NCBI GenBank assembly: GCA_035764935.1
Contig: DASTYK010000187.1
Location: 1-46,889 of the forward strand
DNA from: Longimicrobiales bacterium
GTDB taxonomy: Bacteria; Gemmatimonadota; Gemmatimonadetes; Longimicrobiales; RSA9
Direction: 5' to 3'
DNA length: 46,889 bases
The notes below the pieces were generated by a model. That model had not been told where the DNA came from. It was given only the letters and a program-made list of their open reading frames with translations, and did no database searches. Positions 20,190-27,551 of this stretch are shown piece after piece. The position numbers were made by a program, and so were the translations under genes. Each line of letters begins with the position of its first letter. Position 1 is the first letter of the stretch.

Positions 20190-20432
20190 CGGTACGTTCC
20201 GTCGAGCTGCCGGCAGTCGCTCGAGGGCCGCGCCCCGTACGCCAGCCGGTTGCGCGAGTCGACGCGCCGATGGAGATTGTCGCAATTCGTCCGGTCCCCT
20301 CCCTGCCGCGGCACCGATTCCGGGCCGAACCGGCCGGACACTCAACCGCGCGGCGGTCCGTTGTCAGCAGAGCGGCCCGCCGGCTGGTGCGTGTCAGCAT
20401 CAGTGGAGAGACACACCGCTGAAGACGCTTTC

Positions 20433-21302
20433 ATGAAGGGAAGCCTCGACGGAGCGCAGCGCCGCCGGTGCTCGCTGACCGGCATGGTCATGGTGCCCGT
20501 GCTCGGAGCGCTCCTGACGACGACGTGCACGACCGGAGACGTGCCGGAAACCTCACTCGCGCGCGCCCGGCAGGTGGGGCTGCGCGTCGGGTTCGCGATC
20601 GAGCCGCCGTTCGCGTTCGTCGATTCGGCGGGCGAGCCGCGCGGCGAGGCTCCTGCTATGCTGCGTCGTGTCGCGGGCGCGCTCGCCATCGATTCACTGC
20701 AGTGGTTCCCCCTCGAGTTCGACAACCTGATCCCCGCGCTCGAGCAGGGACGCATCGATGTGATTGCATCGGGGCTGTTCATCACCGGGGAGCGCTCGCG
20801 CAAAGTGCGCTTCTCGCGACCCACCGCGTGCCTCGCGCCGGCGCTGGTCGTGCGTCGCGACGAGCTGCTCGATCGAGCGTCCGCGTGCGACACGTGCCGG
20901 ATCGCGGTGATCCGGGGCAGCGTGGAGCAGCGCGCGCTGCGAGTTGCTGCGGACACGGGGCTGACGGCGCCGGACGTCTCGACTGCGGTCGCTGCGGTGA
21001 AGTCGGGCGATGCCGTGGCTCTCGCGATCTCGGCGCCCACGGCGCGGATGATCGCGGAGAGCGACTCGTCGCTCGCGCTGCGCGACGAGGTGCCTGCGGC
21101 TCTCCGTTCCGCTCGCGGGTGTGCGGCGCTCGCCTTCCGGCCTGGCGACGGTGCTCTTGCCGACGCATTCGATTCGGTGCTGGCGCAGCTCGTCGGCACG
21201 GAGTCTCACCAGGCACTGGTGGACGAGTACGGCTTCACGCGGCGCGAGATCGTGTGTGCGGCCGCCGCGCCTGCGGACGATGGCGTGGAGGCCGCGTGCT
21301 GA
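20433..21302 (+). CDS. Periplasmic solute-binding protein (SBP family 3), linked to a kinase
   Basis: The product is 289 residues. After an N-terminal export signal (hydrophobic stretch about 17-31 ending LLTTTC, possibly a non-canonical lipobox), it shows the family-3 binding-protein pattern: LRVGFAIEPPFAFVDSAGEP, then NLIPALEQGRIDVIASGLFI, ERSRKVRFSRP, and a second lobe with RIAVIRGSVEQRAL. Such proteins bind amino acids or similar small solutes. No transporter gene accompanies it. Instead its stop overlaps or abuts the start of a hybrid histidine kinase, so it probably presents a ligand to that sensor. A CDTC pair (near 150) could form a disulfide. Confidence 0.85.
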   Translation: MKGSLDGAQRRRCSLTGMVMVPVLGALLTTTCTTGDVPETSLARARQVGLRVGFAIEPPFAFVDSAGEPRGEAPAMLRRVAGALAIDSLQWFPLEFDNLIPALEQGRIDVIASGLFITGERSRKVRFSRPTACLAPALVVRRDELLDRASACDTCRIAVIRGSVEQRALRVAADTGLTAPDVSTAVAAVKSGDAVALAISAPTARMIAESDSSLALRDEVPAALRSARGCAALAFRPGDGALADAFDSVLAQLVGTESHQALVDEYGFTRREIVCAAAAPADDGVEAAC

Positions 21303-21316
21303 GGACCCGCCCGTGG

Positions 21317-23425
21317 ATGTTCGGTGCCGGGATCCCCGTGCTGCGTCCCTGGTGGCCGACGATCGCACTGCTCGTGCTCGGCACGGCGTCGGTCATCCTC
21401 CTCGACAGTGTGCATTCCCGCAGCCGCGATCTGCTGGAGCAGACCGTCGTTGCGCTGGACAACGCGGCAGAGAGCCGGCACCGGCTGCTGCACGCGTACC
21501 TGATCCACGAACGACAGACCGCCGGCGATGCCACGTTCGCCCAGTCATCACCACTGGCTGAGCTTCGGGCAGCGGAATACGCACTGCTGAACTGGCTGGG
21601 CGGACGCAGCGGCATCGCCCGGTTCGACGGTGCTCCGCCCGCCGACCCGCGGCTGCTCGACCAGCTCGCGGGATACAGGACGGCGCTGGATGCGTTCCGG
21701 GACCAGCTCGCGCTGGAGGAGCACGACGACGTCATCGTGCGCATGCGCTTCTCGGAGGCGGAGCAGGCCGCCGCCGCGCTGGAAGACGCGATCCGCGCCG
21801 ACGTGACCGCGGCGATGCGTGCGGAGCAGCGCGCGTACACGATCGAGCTGACCGGCTGGGGGGTGCTGCTGCTGCTCAGCCTGGCTGCGGCCGCCTGGGG
21901 ACGCCGCCTGCTCGGCTCGTCCGAACATCGAACGCGGCAGACCGAAAGGCGCCTGTCACGTCTTCGCGCCGTCGCGCCGGTCGGGATTGCGGAGTGCGAC
22001 ATCGACGGGAGTGTGCGCGCGGTCAACCCGGAGTGGGCGCGACTCACGCACCAGGCAGAAGAGGATTGGATCGGCGTCGCGTGGTGGAACGCCCTTGCCG
22101 AGCCTTACCGCGACCGGGCGCGCTCACTCTGGACGAGCACAGATGGCCCGAAGACCGCAACGGTGATGGAAGCGCGCCTGGACCTGGAAGGTGAGGACCA
22201 GGATGACCCGTGGACGCTCGTTCGCTTCGGTGTCGAGGACGTCGTCGGAGGCGCGCGCACACGGGTCGTCACGCTGACCGACATCACGCAGCAACGTCGC
22301 GTCGAGGAGCAGCTCCACCATGTCCAGCGCCTGGAGGCGGTGGGACGCCTCGCCGGCGGTGCTGCACACGACTTCAATAACCTGCTGACCAGCATTGGCG
22401 GGTTTGCCACGCTTGCCCGCGAGCAGATCACGGACGCCGAAGCGGTGGGGGACCTGGACGAGATCGAGCGAGCGGTGGCGCGTGGCCAGGCACTGACACG
22501 CCAGCTCCTCACATTCAGCCGCCGCAACCGCTCACAGCCGGGACTGATCGACCCGGCCGAAGTCCTGGCGGACCTGCGTCGCATGCTGGAGCGGCTCGTA
22601 TCGGACGACGTGGTCATCGAGACGTCCATCGCCCGCACGCCGCCCGTGCTCGCCGATCCGACGCAGCTGGAGCAGGTGATCACGAACCTCGTGATCAATG
22701 CGTCGGACGCGGTGAACGGGCCGGGCCGCATCCGCATCACCGTTGAGCCCACCGATCTGACCGAGCCGTCCGCCTCGGCGACGGGCGAAGTCCCAGCGGG
22801 TCGCTACGTCCTGCTCTCGGTCGCGGACAATGGTCCCGGGATTCCGCCCGAGCTGCGCGAGCGCATCTTCGAGCCCTTTTTCACGACCAAGGAGCGCGGC
22901 AAGGGTACCGGCCTGGGGCTGAGCACGGTCTGGGGCATCGTCCGGCAGATCGGCGGCCACATCCGGCTCGAAAGCGCGCAGGGTCGCGGTGCCTGCTTCC
23001 GGGTCTACCTGCCCGCGGCCGAGGGCGTCGCCGATTTCAAGCCCGAGGAGACGATGGAACAGCGCCGTGCCGCATTCACGGGAACAGCACTCGTCGTCGA
23101 CGACGAGGACGCCGTGCGCCGCCTGACGACGCGCATTCTCGAGCTGCGCGGCTGGATCGTCGTCGAAGCCGTGAACGGCGAGCAGGCGCTCCGTGTCATG
23201 AGCGAGCGCGGTGCCGGCATCGACCTGGTGATCACGGACGTGATGATGCGCGGCATGAACGGCCTCGAGCTCGCCGAGCGGCTGCGTGAAAGCGGCAGCG
23301 ATGTCCCGATTCTGTTCGTGTCCGGCTACGCAGGTGAAGACCTGGACGTTACGGAGGGCGAGTTCCTCGAGAAGCCCTTCTCACCGCCCGCGCTGCTCCA
23401 GGCGGTCGATGAGCTGATGTCGTGA
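21317..23425 (+). CDS. Hybrid sensor histidine kinase with receiver domain
   Basis: The product is 702 residues from ATG 21317; GTG 21296, which overlaps the upstream stop and has GGAGG four bases before it, is an equally possible start. Domains: TM1 (about 15-33), a helical extracytoplasmic sensor (about 35-170), TM2 (about 174-193), PAS (about 210-320), HisKA with AAHDFNNLLTS (phosphoacceptor His351), HATPase with LVINASDAV, VADNGPGIP, FFTTKERGKGTGLGLS, and a C-terminal receiver with Asp641 in VITDVMMRG and the FLEKPFSPPAL lysine. All catalytic elements are intact. It is coupled to a binding-protein gene and faces a degenerate paralogue; the output regulator is not in the window. Confidence 0.93.
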   Translation: MFGAGIPVLRPWWPTIALLVLGTASVILLDSVHSRSRDLLEQTVVALDNAAESRHRLLHAYLIHERQTAGDATFAQSSPLAELRAAEYALLNWLGGRSGIARFDGAPPADPRLLDQLAGYRTALDAFRDQLALEEHDDVIVRMRFSEAEQAAAALEDAIRADVTAAMRAEQRAYTIELTGWGVLLLLSLAAAAWGRRLLGSSEHRTRQTERRLSRLRAVAPVGIAECDIDGSVRAVNPEWARLTHQAEEDWIGVAWWNALAEPYRDRARSLWTSTDGPKTATVMEARLDLEGEDQDDPWTLVRFGVEDVVGGARTRVVTLTDITQQRRVEEQLHHVQRLEAVGRLAGGAAHDFNNLLTSIGGFATLAREQITDAEAVGDLDEIERAVARGQALTRQLLTFSRRNRSQPGLIDPAEVLADLRRMLERLVSDDVVIETSIARTPPVLADPTQLEQVITNLVINASDAVNGPGRIRITVEPTDLTEPSASATGEVPAGRYVLLSVADNGPGIPPELRERIFEPFFTTKERGKGTGLGLSTVWGIVRQIGGHIRLESAQGRGACFRVYLPAAEGVADFKPEETMEQRRAAFTGTALVVDDEDAVRRLTTRILELRGWIVVEAVNGEQALRVMSERGAGIDLVITDVMMRGMNGLELAERLRESGSDVPILFVSGYAGEDLDVTEGEFLEKPFSPPALLQAVDELMS

Positions 23426-23482: not shown

Positions 23483-25351
23483 TCAGTTCAGCGTGAGGCG
23501 GCTGCCGTTGACGAGCGTGGAGTGTACGGCACGCAGCAGCTCGTCCGGCGAGAACGGCTTGTGCAGGAACTGCGCGCGCGCCGTCCTGCCCGCGATATCC
23601 GGGTCGGCCCCATAGCCCGACATCAGCAGCACACGCACGTCGGGCTGATGCGACCGCACCATCTCGACCAGCGCATCACCGCGCACGCGTGGCATCACGA
23701 TGTCGGTGATCAGCAGGTCCAGAGGCTGATCGAGCCGTGAGATCACCTCGAAGGCGTCCTGGCCGTCGCTCGCCTCGAGGACGCTGTACCCCCGGCGCAG
23801 CAGGAGCACGCGCACCAGCGAACGCACGGCGACGTCGTCCTCGACCACCATGATGCGCGTTGCGGGCGGCTCGTGACGTGCAGCCTCGATCTCCACGGCA
23901 TCCTGCGCGGCGACCGGCAGATAGATCGTGAAGAGCGTGCCCGCCTGGCGACCTGCGTCCGCCCAGATGTAGCCGCCGCTCTGCTTCACGAAGCCGTACA
24001 CGCTCGCCAGCTCGAGACCGGTCGCCTCCTCGCCCGTGAACGGCTGGAAGATGTGCTCCAGCACGTCGGCGCCAAGGCGCGGACCCGAGTCCGAGATTGC
24101 AAGCATCGCATACTGGCCCGCCTGCACCGGATACGGAAAGCTCCGGCTGCGATCCGGCGTGAGCTCTGCAGGTGCTACCTGGACCGTCAGGTTGCCGCCA
24201 TCCGGCATCGCGCTGCGGGCGCGGCTCGCCAGCGTGAGCAGCGCACTGCGCAGCTCGGCACTGTCCACGTGCACGTGGGGCGTACGGTCGTCGATCGAGA
24301 CGTGCACGTGAATGCTCTCGCCCAGCGTACCGCGCAGCGCCGGCAACAGCGCCTGCATTGTCGCCTGCAGGTTCACTGTTACCGGGTTCAGGTGCTGCAT
24401 GCGCGTATAGGCAAGGAGCTGATGGATCAGCGCCGTGAGCCTGTCGCCTGCAACCTGGATCTCATTGATGCCGTTCCACTGCGGGGTGTCGCGCAGCTCG
24501 TGAGCCAGCACCGCGGCGTGGCCCTGGATCGTGGTCACGATGTTGTTGAAGTCCGGTGCAATCCCCGACGTGATCCGGCCCAGCATCTCCATCTGCGCGG
24601 CACGGCGCGTCTGCTGCTCGACCAGCTTGAGCTCCGTGATGTCACGGCCGCGCAGCTCCGTCCTGCTCCTGCCATGTGCTGCGATACGATCCTCACGGAA
24701 CAGCTCGATCGTGCGAACCCCGCCCTTCGGCAGGGGGAAGCGCAGCTCCCGGCGCGACGACAGCCCCGACTCCGTGTCCGGCGCCAGCATGGCCCGCGCG
24801 GCCGGTGCGTCCTGCGTGTGCACCAGCGCGTCGAAGCGCTGACCCGTCAGCGACTCGGTCGCGATGCCGAGCACGCGCCCGCACGATTCGCTGGCCCACG
24901 TCACCACGCCCCCGTCACTGATCGACAGGACCAGGTCGCTCGCGCTGCGCAATGCGTCGCGCCGCGCCCGGTGCAGCAGCTCGGTGACCCACCCGGCCGC
25001 GAGCGTCACGACGATGTATGCAGAGCCCAGGTACAGGAAGAGCGGATCGTCGGGAGCCGTGCCGCCCAGGACGGAGACCGTGCCGTTCCACAGCGACAGC
25101 ACGGCCATGCCGATGGCAAACGCCAGCGCAGCGCCCACCCAGCCCTTGTAGTACGACAGGAGAAAGGGCGGAATCAGCGCCGCCAGCCAGAGCAACGGCT
25201 GCCCCGTCGTCCAGCTTTCCGGCGTGATGCGCGGCAGCACCAGCGGGATCAGGAGCGCAGCGATCGAAAAGAGCAGCGCGCGCACCGGCACCGCGCCCGC
25301 CCCACCCGCAGAGGAGTCGCGCACTACGTGCGCACGGAGACTCGCTGTCAT
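23483..25351 (-). CDS. Degenerate hybrid histidine kinase (pseudokinase) with intact receiver
   Basis: The product is 622 residues from ATG 25351, chosen because GGCGAGG stands six bases upstream. The N terminus holds four to five membrane helices (about 22-130), then a PAS domain (about 140-245). The H-box reads GIAPDFNNIV: Pro266 replaces the phosphoacceptor His. The N-box is LASRARSAMPDGG, without the Mg-binding Asn, and the G2 box is ATGLELA instead of GTGLGLS. The receiver is intact, with Asp550 in LITDIVMPR and the HKPFSPDEL lysine. It cannot act as a normal kinase; it may tune or receive signal from the convergent intact kinase. A TATTAA near 25421-25426 could be its -10. Confidence 0.9.
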   Translation of the reverse strand: MTASLRAHVVRDSSAGGAGAVPVRALLFSIAALLIPLVLPRITPESWTTGQPLLWLAALIPPFLLSYYKGWVGAALAFAIGMAVLSLWNGTVSVLGGTAPDDPLFLYLGSAYIVVTLAAGWVTELLHRARRDALRSASDLVLSISDGGVVTWASESCGRVLGIATESLTGQRFDALVHTQDAPAARAMLAPDTESGLSSRRELRFPLPKGGVRTIELFREDRIAAHGRSRTELRGRDITELKLVEQQTRRAAQMEMLGRITSGIAPDFNNIVTTIQGHAAVLAHELRDTPQWNGINEIQVAGDRLTALIHQLLAYTRMQHLNPVTVNLQATMQALLPALRGTLGESIHVHVSIDDRTPHVHVDSAELRSALLTLASRARSAMPDGGNLTVQVAPAELTPDRSRSFPYPVQAGQYAMLAISDSGPRLGADVLEHIFQPFTGEEATGLELASVYGFVKQSGGYIWADAGRQAGTLFTIYLPVAAQDAVEIEAARHEPPATRIMVVEDDVAVRSLVRVLLLRRGYSVLEASDGQDAFEVISRLDQPLDLLITDIVMPRVRGDALVEMVRSHQPDVRVLLMSGYGADPDIAGRTARAQFLHKPFSPDELLRAVHSTLVNGSRLTLN

Positions 25352-25676: not shown

Positions 25677-25696
25677 CACCGTGGAGCCCTTTTTTT
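25665..25696 (+). terminator. Intrinsic terminator of the asnB attenuator
   Basis: GGGCTCCACGG (25665-25675), loop TCA, and the exact complement (25679-25689) make an 11-base-pair stem followed directly by seven Ts (25690-25696). It is the only T-tailed hairpin I found in the window. No plus-strand gene other than the leader ORF lies upstream, so its position 23 bases after that ORF and 25 bases before asnB points to regulation, not gene ending. Confidence 0.9.
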
Positions 25697-25721
25697 GTGC
25701 CCATGCGCGGGAGCACCATCG

Positions 25722-27551
25722 ATGTGTTCGATCCTCGCCGTACTCAACCTGGAAAGCGACGTCTCGCCCCGACGTCGCGAGGTGGTCCGCCTGTCGCGGC
25801 TGCAGCAGCACAGGGGCCCCGACTGGTCGGGCGTGTACACCGGCACGCACGCGGTGCTCGCTCACGAGCGCCTCGCAATCGTGGACGTGCTGCACGGCGC
25901 GCAGCCGCTGCGCAACGCGGAAGGCACGCAGGCACTGGCGGTGAACGGCGAGATCTACAACCACCGTGCGCTGCGCCACGGCCTGCGTGCGCCGTACGCC
26001 TTCCAGACCGACTCCGACTGCGAGATCATTCTGGCGCTGTACCGGGAGCAGGGCTCCGATTTCATCGGGATGCTGAACGGCATCTTTGCGTTCGTGCTCT
26101 TCGACGAGGCGCGCGGGCGCTACGTCATCGCGCGCGACCCGATCGGTGTGATGCCGCTCTACATGGGCAGCGACGATGCGGGCAACACCTGGGTCGCATC
26201 GGAGATGAAGGCGCTCGTGCCCGTGTGCACGTCCATCCACGAGTTTCCGCCGGGACATGTCCTCGACAGCGGGAGCGGTGCGCTGCGGCGGTATTACGAG
26301 CCTGCGTGGCGGGAGTTTGGGGCTGTGGCGGGCGGCGCCGCGTCGCATCCGGCCCGGATCGAAGCGGTGATGGTGACGCCGGAGTCGGCGCATCGGGCAC
26401 CGGGCGCTACCGGGGCGGACGCAGAGCACCCGGCACCGGCCGCTGCCGATGCGGCACCGGCGCCCGGCCGCATCCGCACTGCACTGCGTGCCGCCGTCGA
26501 GCGCCAGCTCATGTGCGACGTGCCCTACGGCGTGCTGCTCTCCGGCGGGCTCGACTCCTCCATCATCGCAGCCACCGCCCGTACGTTCGCCGACCGCCGC
26601 ATCGAGGAGGACGGTCGCGCGGCCGCGTGGTGGCCGCGCCTGCACACGTTCTCCATCGGCCTGGACGGTGCACCCGACCTCGCGGCCGCGCGCGACGTCG
26701 CGCGCCACATCGACTCGGCGCACCACGAGTTCCACTTCACCGTGGAAGAAGGCCTCGACGCACTCGCGGACGTCGTCTACCACCTCGAGACGTACGACGT
26801 CACGACCATCCGCGCGGCGACGCCGATGTACCTGATGGCGCGTCGCATTCGTGCGATGGGCGTGAAGATGGTGCTCTCGGGAGAGGGTGCGGACGAGATC
26901 TTCGGCGGCTACCTGTACTTCCACCGCGCGCCGGACGCGCGTGCGCTGCACGAGGAGACCGTGCGCAAGCTCGACCGGCTGCACATGTACGACTGTCTGC
27001 GGGCGAACAAGGCCATGGCGGCGTGGGGCGTGGAAGCGCGCGTGCCGTTCCTGGACCGCGAGTTCCTCGACGTCGCGATGCAGATACCACCGGAACTCAA
27101 GATGGCCGGCGGCGACCGCATGGAGAAGCACGTGCTGCGCGAGGCGTTCGCGACCGACCTTCCGCAAGCAGTCGCGTGGCGGCAGAAGGAGCAGTTCTCC
27201 GACGGCGTCGGTTACGAGTGGATCGACAGCGTGCGCGCGTTCGCGGCGCGCGAGATCAGTCCGCGCGTGCTCGAGCATGCGAACGTCCGCTTCCCGTACA
27301 ACACGCCGACCACGCCGGAGGCGTACCTGTACCGGGCGCTGTTTGCCGAACGGTTCCCGCATGACGCATGTGCGCGCTGCGTCCCGGGCGGCGCTTCCGT
27401 CGCGTGCAGCACGCCGGAAGCGCTGGCCTGGGACGCGTCGCTCGGTGACGTGATCGATCCGTCCGGCCGGGCCGTACGCGGCGTGCATGCAGCCGCGTAT
27501 GCCGCTACCGGCACGACGGAGCGGCCGGCTGAGGCCGGCCCGCTGTGCTAG
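25722..27551 (+). CDS. asnB: Asparagine synthetase, glutamine-hydrolysing
   Basis: The product is 609 residues. It makes asparagine from aspartate, ATP and glutamine. The start is ATG 25722, since Cys2 must become the N-terminal nucleophile (MCSILAVLNL); GGGAG lies eight bases upstream. The class II glutaminase domain covers about 2-195 (QQHRGPDW, HERLAIVD, NGEIYNH, DSDCE). The ATP-dependent synthetase domain starts near 250, with the PP-loop LLSGGLDSS (274-280) and LSGEGADEIFGGY. E. coli AsnB has 554 residues; the excess is mainly an Ala/Pro-rich linker at about 200-250. The gene sits behind the attenuator. Its TAG shares CTAG with the stop of the opposing VOC gene. Confidence 0.96.
   Translation: MCSILAVLNLESDVSPRRREVVRLSRLQQHRGPDWSGVYTGTHAVLAHERLAIVDVLHGAQPLRNAEGTQALAVNGEIYNHRALRHGLRAPYAFQTDSDCEIILALYREQGSDFIGMLNGIFAFVLFDEARGRYVIARDPIGVMPLYMGSDDAGNTWVASEMKALVPVCTSIHEFPPGHVLDSGSGALRRYYEPAWREFGAVAGGAASHPARIEAVMVTPESAHRAPGATGADAEHPAPAAADAAPAPGRIRTALRAAVERQLMCDVPYGVLLSGGLDSSIIAATARTFADRRIEEDGRAAAWWPRLHTFSIGLDGAPDLAAARDVARHIDSAHHEFHFTVEEGLDALADVVYHLETYDVTTIRAATPMYLMARRIRAMGVKMVLSGEGADEIFGGYLYFHRAPDARALHEETVRKLDRLHMYDCLRANKAMAAWGVEARVPFLDREFLDVAMQIPPELKMAGGDRMEKHVLREAFATDLPQAVAWRQKEQFSDGVGYEWIDSVRAFAAREISPRVLEHANVRFPYNTPTTPEAYLYRALFAERFPHDACARCVPGGASVACSTPEALAWDASLGDVIDPSGRAVRGVHAAAYAATGTTERPAEAGPLC
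27523..27540. terminator. GC hairpin at the end of asnB
   Basis: GGCCGGC (27523-27529), loop TGAG, GCCGGCC (27534-27540) lies within the last codons of asnB and just downstream of the converging VOC gene, which leaves no intergenic space. It may help end both transcripts. Confidence 0.35.

Follow-up and report, generated by a model that had tools for sequence, protein, structure and literature searches.

A CckA-like hybrid histidine pseudokinase with a complete receiver domain in a Longimicrobiales bacterium

The locus and its genes

The window, i.e. the whole stretch of 46,889 nucleotides that was analysed, carries on its minus strand a gene related to hybrid histidine kinases, the product of which is called the pseudokinase below. 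The features of the locus are the following:

23483..25351, minus strand: whole pseudokinase gene (622 aa; membrane domain, PAS-like domain, DHp, CA, receiver)
24947..25294, minus strand: membrane domain (residues ~20-135, predicted helices 23-133), joined in relatives to GGDEF proteins
24641..24961, minus strand: weak PAS-like domain (residues ~131-237), below the Pfam cut-off
24407..24637, minus strand: DHp domain (residues 239-315), two long helices, with the H-box
24554..24556, minus strand: codon 266, CCG (Pro), where the phosphoacceptor His is expected (codon reading and alignment)
23888..24385, minus strand: CA (HATPase) domain (residues 323-488), fold apparently retained, ATP boxes lost
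24209..24235, minus strand: N-box (residues 373-381), with N373T, N377R and D380S (alignment)
24074..24091, minus strand: G1 box (residues 421-426, DSGPRL), second Gly lost (G425R), Asp421 kept
24005..24049, minus strand: F-box, ATP lid and G2 (residues 435-449), lid shortened, G443A, G447E
23507..23857, minus strand: receiver domain (residues 499-615), 17/18 conserved positions kept
23702..23704, minus strand: codon 550, GAC, the receiver phosphoacceptor Asp (codon reading and alignment)
21317..23425, plus strand: canonical hybrid histidine kinase, convergent neighbour and possible, unproven partner (Pfam, alignment)
20250-21302: SBP_bac_3 protein, before the kinase at 21317-23425
25695-27551: asparagine synthase gene, on the other side of the pseudokinase

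The pseudokinase frame runs from an ATG at 25351 to a stop codon at 23483-23485, and its GC content at the three codon positions (0.70/0.49/0.86) is ordinary. A first, sequence-only reading had described an open frame of 622 codons without decay, leaving the strand unstated; the frame indeed contains no internal stop. Comparison with the Pfam HisKA and HATPase families gives a score just under the cut-off for HisKA (24.4 bits against 26.9) and a weak pass for HATPase_c (38.4 bits), for which the neighbouring kinase scores 92.6 bits. The receiver passes well (Response_reg, 69.6 bits; 74.4 bits in the neighbour). The same reading had called the PAS domain intact, which was generous: a PAS-like region is present, but it is weak, with the matches to PAS_3 (18.8 bits) and PAS (17.8 bits) both below the cut-off.

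Catalytic residues lost and kept

The roles of the phosphoacceptor histidine, the Mg-ligand region, the G1 loop, the lid and the G2 box belong to the general knowledge of histidine kinases. The DHp and CA domains were aligned with homologues from the same genome, the family, the order and GTDB contigs. Position 266 is a histidine in 60/60 non-self rows, some of which are overlapping copies of one gene, and a proline in the pseudokinase. The H-box accordingly reads SGIAPDFNN instead of GGVAHDFNN, with the D-F-N-N that follows the lost histidine retained. Pro266 had already been noticed at this place, and its codon is, as stated then, two changes away from CAC, as it also is from CAT.

The ATP-binding boxes are damaged as well. 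The N-box reads TLASRARSAM where the homologues have NLxxNARDAM, so that the reported absence of its asparagine holds and extends to the aspartate at position 380. The G1 box, DSGPRL, stands against DxGxG in the homologues, and the lid and G2 region, TGEEATGLELAS, against TTKxxGxGTGLGLS, with one G2 glycine lost, in agreement with the altered G2 box described before. The loss of the second G1 glycine, the shortening of the ATP lid and the membrane domain are additions to that description. By contrast with these boxes, the receiver is intact, as had been claimed: Asp550, Ser578 and Lys598 are all present in the alignment. Of the features expected from an active hybrid histidine kinase, the protein thus has the receiver and lacks the H-box histidine and proper Mg-ATP N, G1, F and G2 boxes.

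Predicted structure

An AlphaFold model built with 57 aligned rows reached a mean pLDDT of 80.7 and a pTM of 0.66. It places the DHp helices at residues 239-285 and 292-315; pLDDT is mostly 90-98 in the CA blocks, 76-80 in the lid region and mostly 92-98 in the receiver. It is low at residues 1-18, 134-142 and 151-166, the last two being PAS-like stretches with values below 50. The model suggests that the DHp, CA and receiver folds are retained. Foldseek matches include CckA 5idj (rank 9), RetS 6dk7 (rank 34) and DivL 4q20 (rank 39), and by sequence the closest solved core is that of CckA 5idj (E 4e-35). The best NCBIfam model is likewise CckA, at 242.1 bits, far below its equivalog cut-off of 1000. 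A histidine kinase fold that is kept, according to AlphaFold and Foldseek, and missing catalytic residues are features shared with histidine pseudokinases such as DivL and RetS; the protein would be a membrane-anchored pseudokinase of the CckA-like (HDFNN) kind.

Selection or decay

Retention was scored over 48 non-redundant homologues, at columns that are at least 90% conserved. The pseudokinase keeps 14/19 such positions in the DHp domain, 23/37 in the CA domain and 17/18 in the receiver. The homologues have a mean retention of 0.97 per domain, with minima of 0.58 (DHp), 0.81 (CA) and 0.78 (receiver). CA retention in the pseudokinase (0.62) is thus under that of the lowest homologue, DHp retention is low, yet not the lowest, and receiver retention is normal. 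Conserved positions are not fully independent, and with this limit Fisher's test of the receiver against DHp and CA combined gives a modest one-sided p of 0.014 (two-sided 0.030), and that of the receiver against CA a p of 0.010.

Neutral evolution was simulated from the present-day sequence with substitutions only, indels being ignored. At a 34% loss of the marked sites, the frame was still open in 11/1200 runs (4, 6, 1 and 0 of 300 under four settings). At a 10% loss it was open in 249/1200 (79, 77, 44 and 49 of 300), so that a recent loss of function would leave no trace. The simulation thus speaks against prolonged neutral drift and leaves room for a very recent loss. In a tree, the end branch of the pseudokinase measures 2.14, against a median of 0.6, a length that also fits relaxed constraint, and the protein sits in an unresolved fork. 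The earlier claim of a selected rather than dying gene is therefore supported: the losses pile up in the kinase core, the receiver is well kept and few neutral runs stay open, although function may have been lost recently, no orthologue having come up for a test of selection.

Orthologues and rarity

A full-length search of 99 relatives, in which 12 candidates per genome were scored, recovered besides the protein itself only paralogous cores with 33-42% identity, none of them extending over residues 1-114. Searches with the N-terminal part found the membrane domain only, and no orthologue of the pseudokinase, in 12 family genomes and in 154 order genomes. GTDB contigs yielded 20 loci with at best 35% identity across the core, and again no orthologue.

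At the DNA level, the pattern G-x-A-X-D-F-N-N with Pro, Leu or Arg at X has a single match in 298 phylum genomes, the pseudokinase itself. With a CAN codon, which pools His and Gln, it occurs in 199/298 genomes and at no fewer than 1377 places (198 genomes); the places listed and read have CAC or CAT, and the pattern overlooks kinases with other flanks, such as the GGAAHDFNN of the neighbour. A candidate second loss in the phylum (His to Tyr, L106), the one match with a codon starting with A, G or T, was rejected, being a 125-aa frame without kinase sequence.

Among the 63 HATPase_c rows of its own genome, the pseudokinase ranks 55th (41.8 bits). The upstream translations of 61/63 rows were read by eye; the two left aside are the pseudokinase and the second of two rows that fall in one frame. 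Most of these stretches are HisKA-type with the histidine, and among the others are GyrB-, CheA-, LytS- and anti-sigma-like proteins without such a box. No other HDFNN-type case was seen, and the HisKA-type proteins seen in this genome to lack the histidine number two, the pseudokinase included.

The second one (G000:C119:10938-12065; L174, L187) has the H-box SGITYELRETLG, with Tyr for His, and an altered G2 (GAPGFRLAIS). Its family relatives at five loci (L188, L189, L190, L192, L193) carry the histidine in an H-box of the RGFTHDVKNPLG type. Another kinase-like protein of the same genome, of 254 aa (G000:C142:13201-13476; L186), keeps the histidine (VAHELRSPIAAI) and is devoid of the N-box Asn and of clear G boxes. 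A literature search pairing Gemmatimonadota with hybrid histidine kinase gave no match.

The membrane domain

The AlphaFold helices at residues 23-133 form an N-terminal multi-helix domain, which we read from its hydrophobic sequence as probably crossing the membrane. With its own genome counted, the domain is found in 38/154 order genomes at E <= 1e-12 and, with a threshold of E <= 10 that lets in several weak matches, in 9/12 family genomes. When 27 frames with the domain (25 distinct genes) were checked, 25 (23 distinct) ran into a GGDEF-type start; one of the other two has a short open end and one leads into unrelated sequence. Of the longer frames listed, eight continue to a receiver and an HD-GYP-like part (read by eye). 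In no matching frame that was read does a PAS-kinase follow the membrane domain immediately, as it does in the pseudokinase. One 1252-aa frame (L074:3050-6805, minus strand) combines the membrane domain with a GGDEF-like part (GDDEF), a canonical HDFNN kinase and a receiver. In the genome of the pseudokinase, the G000:C133:23831 region (L091:2140-4077) encodes a protein in which the membrane domain precedes a degenerate GGDEF (WRGDSF against GGEEF) and a receiver-like tail.

Neighbouring genes and possible partners

The kinase at 21317-23425 had been put forward as a phosphodonor for Asp550, a proposal that nothing in particular favours. The two genes converge, their stop codons lying 57 bases apart, and this arrangement provides no evidence for a pair. 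This kinase moreover has its own receiver. The stretch 20250-23425 and G000:C11:3808-6662 are a duplicated pair of an extracellular solute-binding protein and a hybrid histidine kinase (75% identity for the kinase, 61% for the binding protein), and on contig C11 the pair is followed, on its own strand, by the gene of a canonical hybrid kinase. For these reasons the neighbour was not adopted as the partner. With six Hpt matches besides the 63 HATPase rows in the genome, donors for phosphotransfer in trans are in principle present.

Function and rival explanations

The explanation favoured here, to which we would give about an even chance of being right, is that of a catalytically dead, CckA-type membrane hybrid kinase that probably acts as a receiver-based phosphate acceptor and as a dimer partner for another kinase. 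With the histidine replaced by proline and the Mg-ATP pocket dismantled, the protein would neither bind ATP normally nor autophosphorylate. Its DHp helices and CA fold, as predicted, could persist as a dimerizing, signal-responsive body. Phosphate for the chemically complete receiver would probably come in trans, from an Hpt protein or from a different histidine kinase. The protein may then be a membrane-gated sink or relay point for phosphate, in the way the RetS receiver drains GacS, and the retained D-F-N-N might aid phosphatase action on a partner receiver. The joint loss of N-box, G1, lid and G2, beside a receiver that kept its conserved positions, is counted for this explanation; a proline in the middle of a DHp helix, which could disturb the dimer, counts against it. 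The sequence-only reading had left the choice between sensor, scaffold and phosphate sink open, and at the level of sequence the three appear indistinguishable. A more elaborate version, which we consider possible and on the whole rather doubtful, is that of a one-lineage chimera: the membrane sensor of a GGDEF protein of the c-di-GMP type would have been joined to a CckA-like hybrid kinase that later discarded its ATP chemistry, and the membrane-gated receiver would drain or relay phosphate, or the DFNN dephosphorylate partners, for other kinases.

Several other explanations have to be weighed. The dead core could instead be a DivL-like reader, with the receiver secondary, and tune a canonical kinase allosterically by binding either that kinase or a phosphorylated response regulator. 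The resemblance of the core to CckA, whose known pseudokinase regulator DivL shares the fold, speaks for it, as do the DFNN stretch and the DHp positions kept, and in the excerpted text of PMC4211667 DivL is devoid of autokinase activity and a poor binder of ATP, and it senses DivK~P. However, that text describes DivL without a receiver, which is the best-kept domain here, and many kinases of the phylum are CckA-like, so that the likeness is not specific; we regard such a reader as unlikely. A dying gene, i.e. a kinase copy inactivated in its own lineage that has not yet gathered stops or frameshifts, would account for the lack of an orthologue in the order genomes and GTDB contigs searched and for the long end branch. 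The second His-less kinase of the genome also lost its histidine, so that such losses may be common. Set against this are the domain-selective loss, an open frame with ordinary codon-position GC and the rarity of open frames in neutral runs at the observed loss, and we hold this explanation to be improbable.

A core with a new activity, which could for instance bind a nucleotide second messenger or carry out a different enzyme chemistry, governed by the GGDEF-associated membrane domain, would agree with the otherwise c-di-GMP-type company of that domain and with the c-di-GMP bound to the CckA CA domain in 5idm, according to the entry title. No new active site is apparent in the sequence, however, and we think this very improbable. 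Finally, the assembly is a draft of 195 contigs, which would allow for a sequencing or assembly error. Yet the many separate substitutions and the in-frame lid deletion lie clustered in the catalytic boxes of one open frame; one error cannot yield them all, and an error is thus nearly refuted.

Comparison with known systems

The pseudokinase shares with CckA of Caulobacter (5idj, 5idm) an HDFNN-type DHp domain, a CA domain and a receiver. CckA, however, is an active kinase/phosphatase with the histidine, N-box and G boxes that are all damaged here. A further difference is the N-terminal membrane domain, which in the pseudokinase belongs to the GGDEF-associated type. DivL of Caulobacter (4q20) resembles it in having the histidine replaced (by Tyr), in its PAS and histidine kinase core and in its fold, and it is without autokinase activity, as far as described in the excerpt of PMC4211667. 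The DivL substitution is conserved across alphaproteobacteria, and that excerpt describes no receiver, whereas the present protein has a proline, a shortened ATP lid and a complete receiver.

RetS of Pseudomonas aeruginosa (6dk7) is also a hybrid kinase with a degenerate HATPase. According to the portion of PMC5992135 consulted, it does not autophosphorylate; its REC2 is a phosphate sink for GacS, and it additionally has phosphatase action and blocks GacS autophosphorylation. RetS retains its H-box, which has the HExxT phosphatase motif, while the pseudokinase lost the histidine and kept DFNN. By analogy, RetS would be the nearest working model; if the protein reads partners, the closest model would be DivL. 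The ChrS variant of Corynebacterium glutamicum is likewise a kinase without a working CA domain and still alters the output of a paralogous kinase; in the excerpt of PMC9491836 it is a laboratory-evolved frameshift that keeps the sensor kinase histidine. The pseudokinase, by contrast, lost both histidine and ATP site in nature and has a receiver attached.

As membrane-bound hybrid proteins that have a receiver and whose histidine-kinase boxes are degenerate, the subfamily II ethylene receptors (ETR2, EIN4) offer a parallel. Unlike the pseudokinase they are plant proteins, and Ser/Thr kinase activity is reported for them in the excerpted part of PMC3485614, which gives no confirmation of the degenerate boxes.

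DivL and RetS are among the few histidine pseudokinases of bacteria that have been elucidated, and retention of conserved positions scored domain by domain can help to separate such proteins from decaying genes when orthologues are missing. Histidine pseudokinases are already known, and the protein described here is a lineage-specific variant, in which the histidine and the ATP site are lost and the same chain has a complete receiver.
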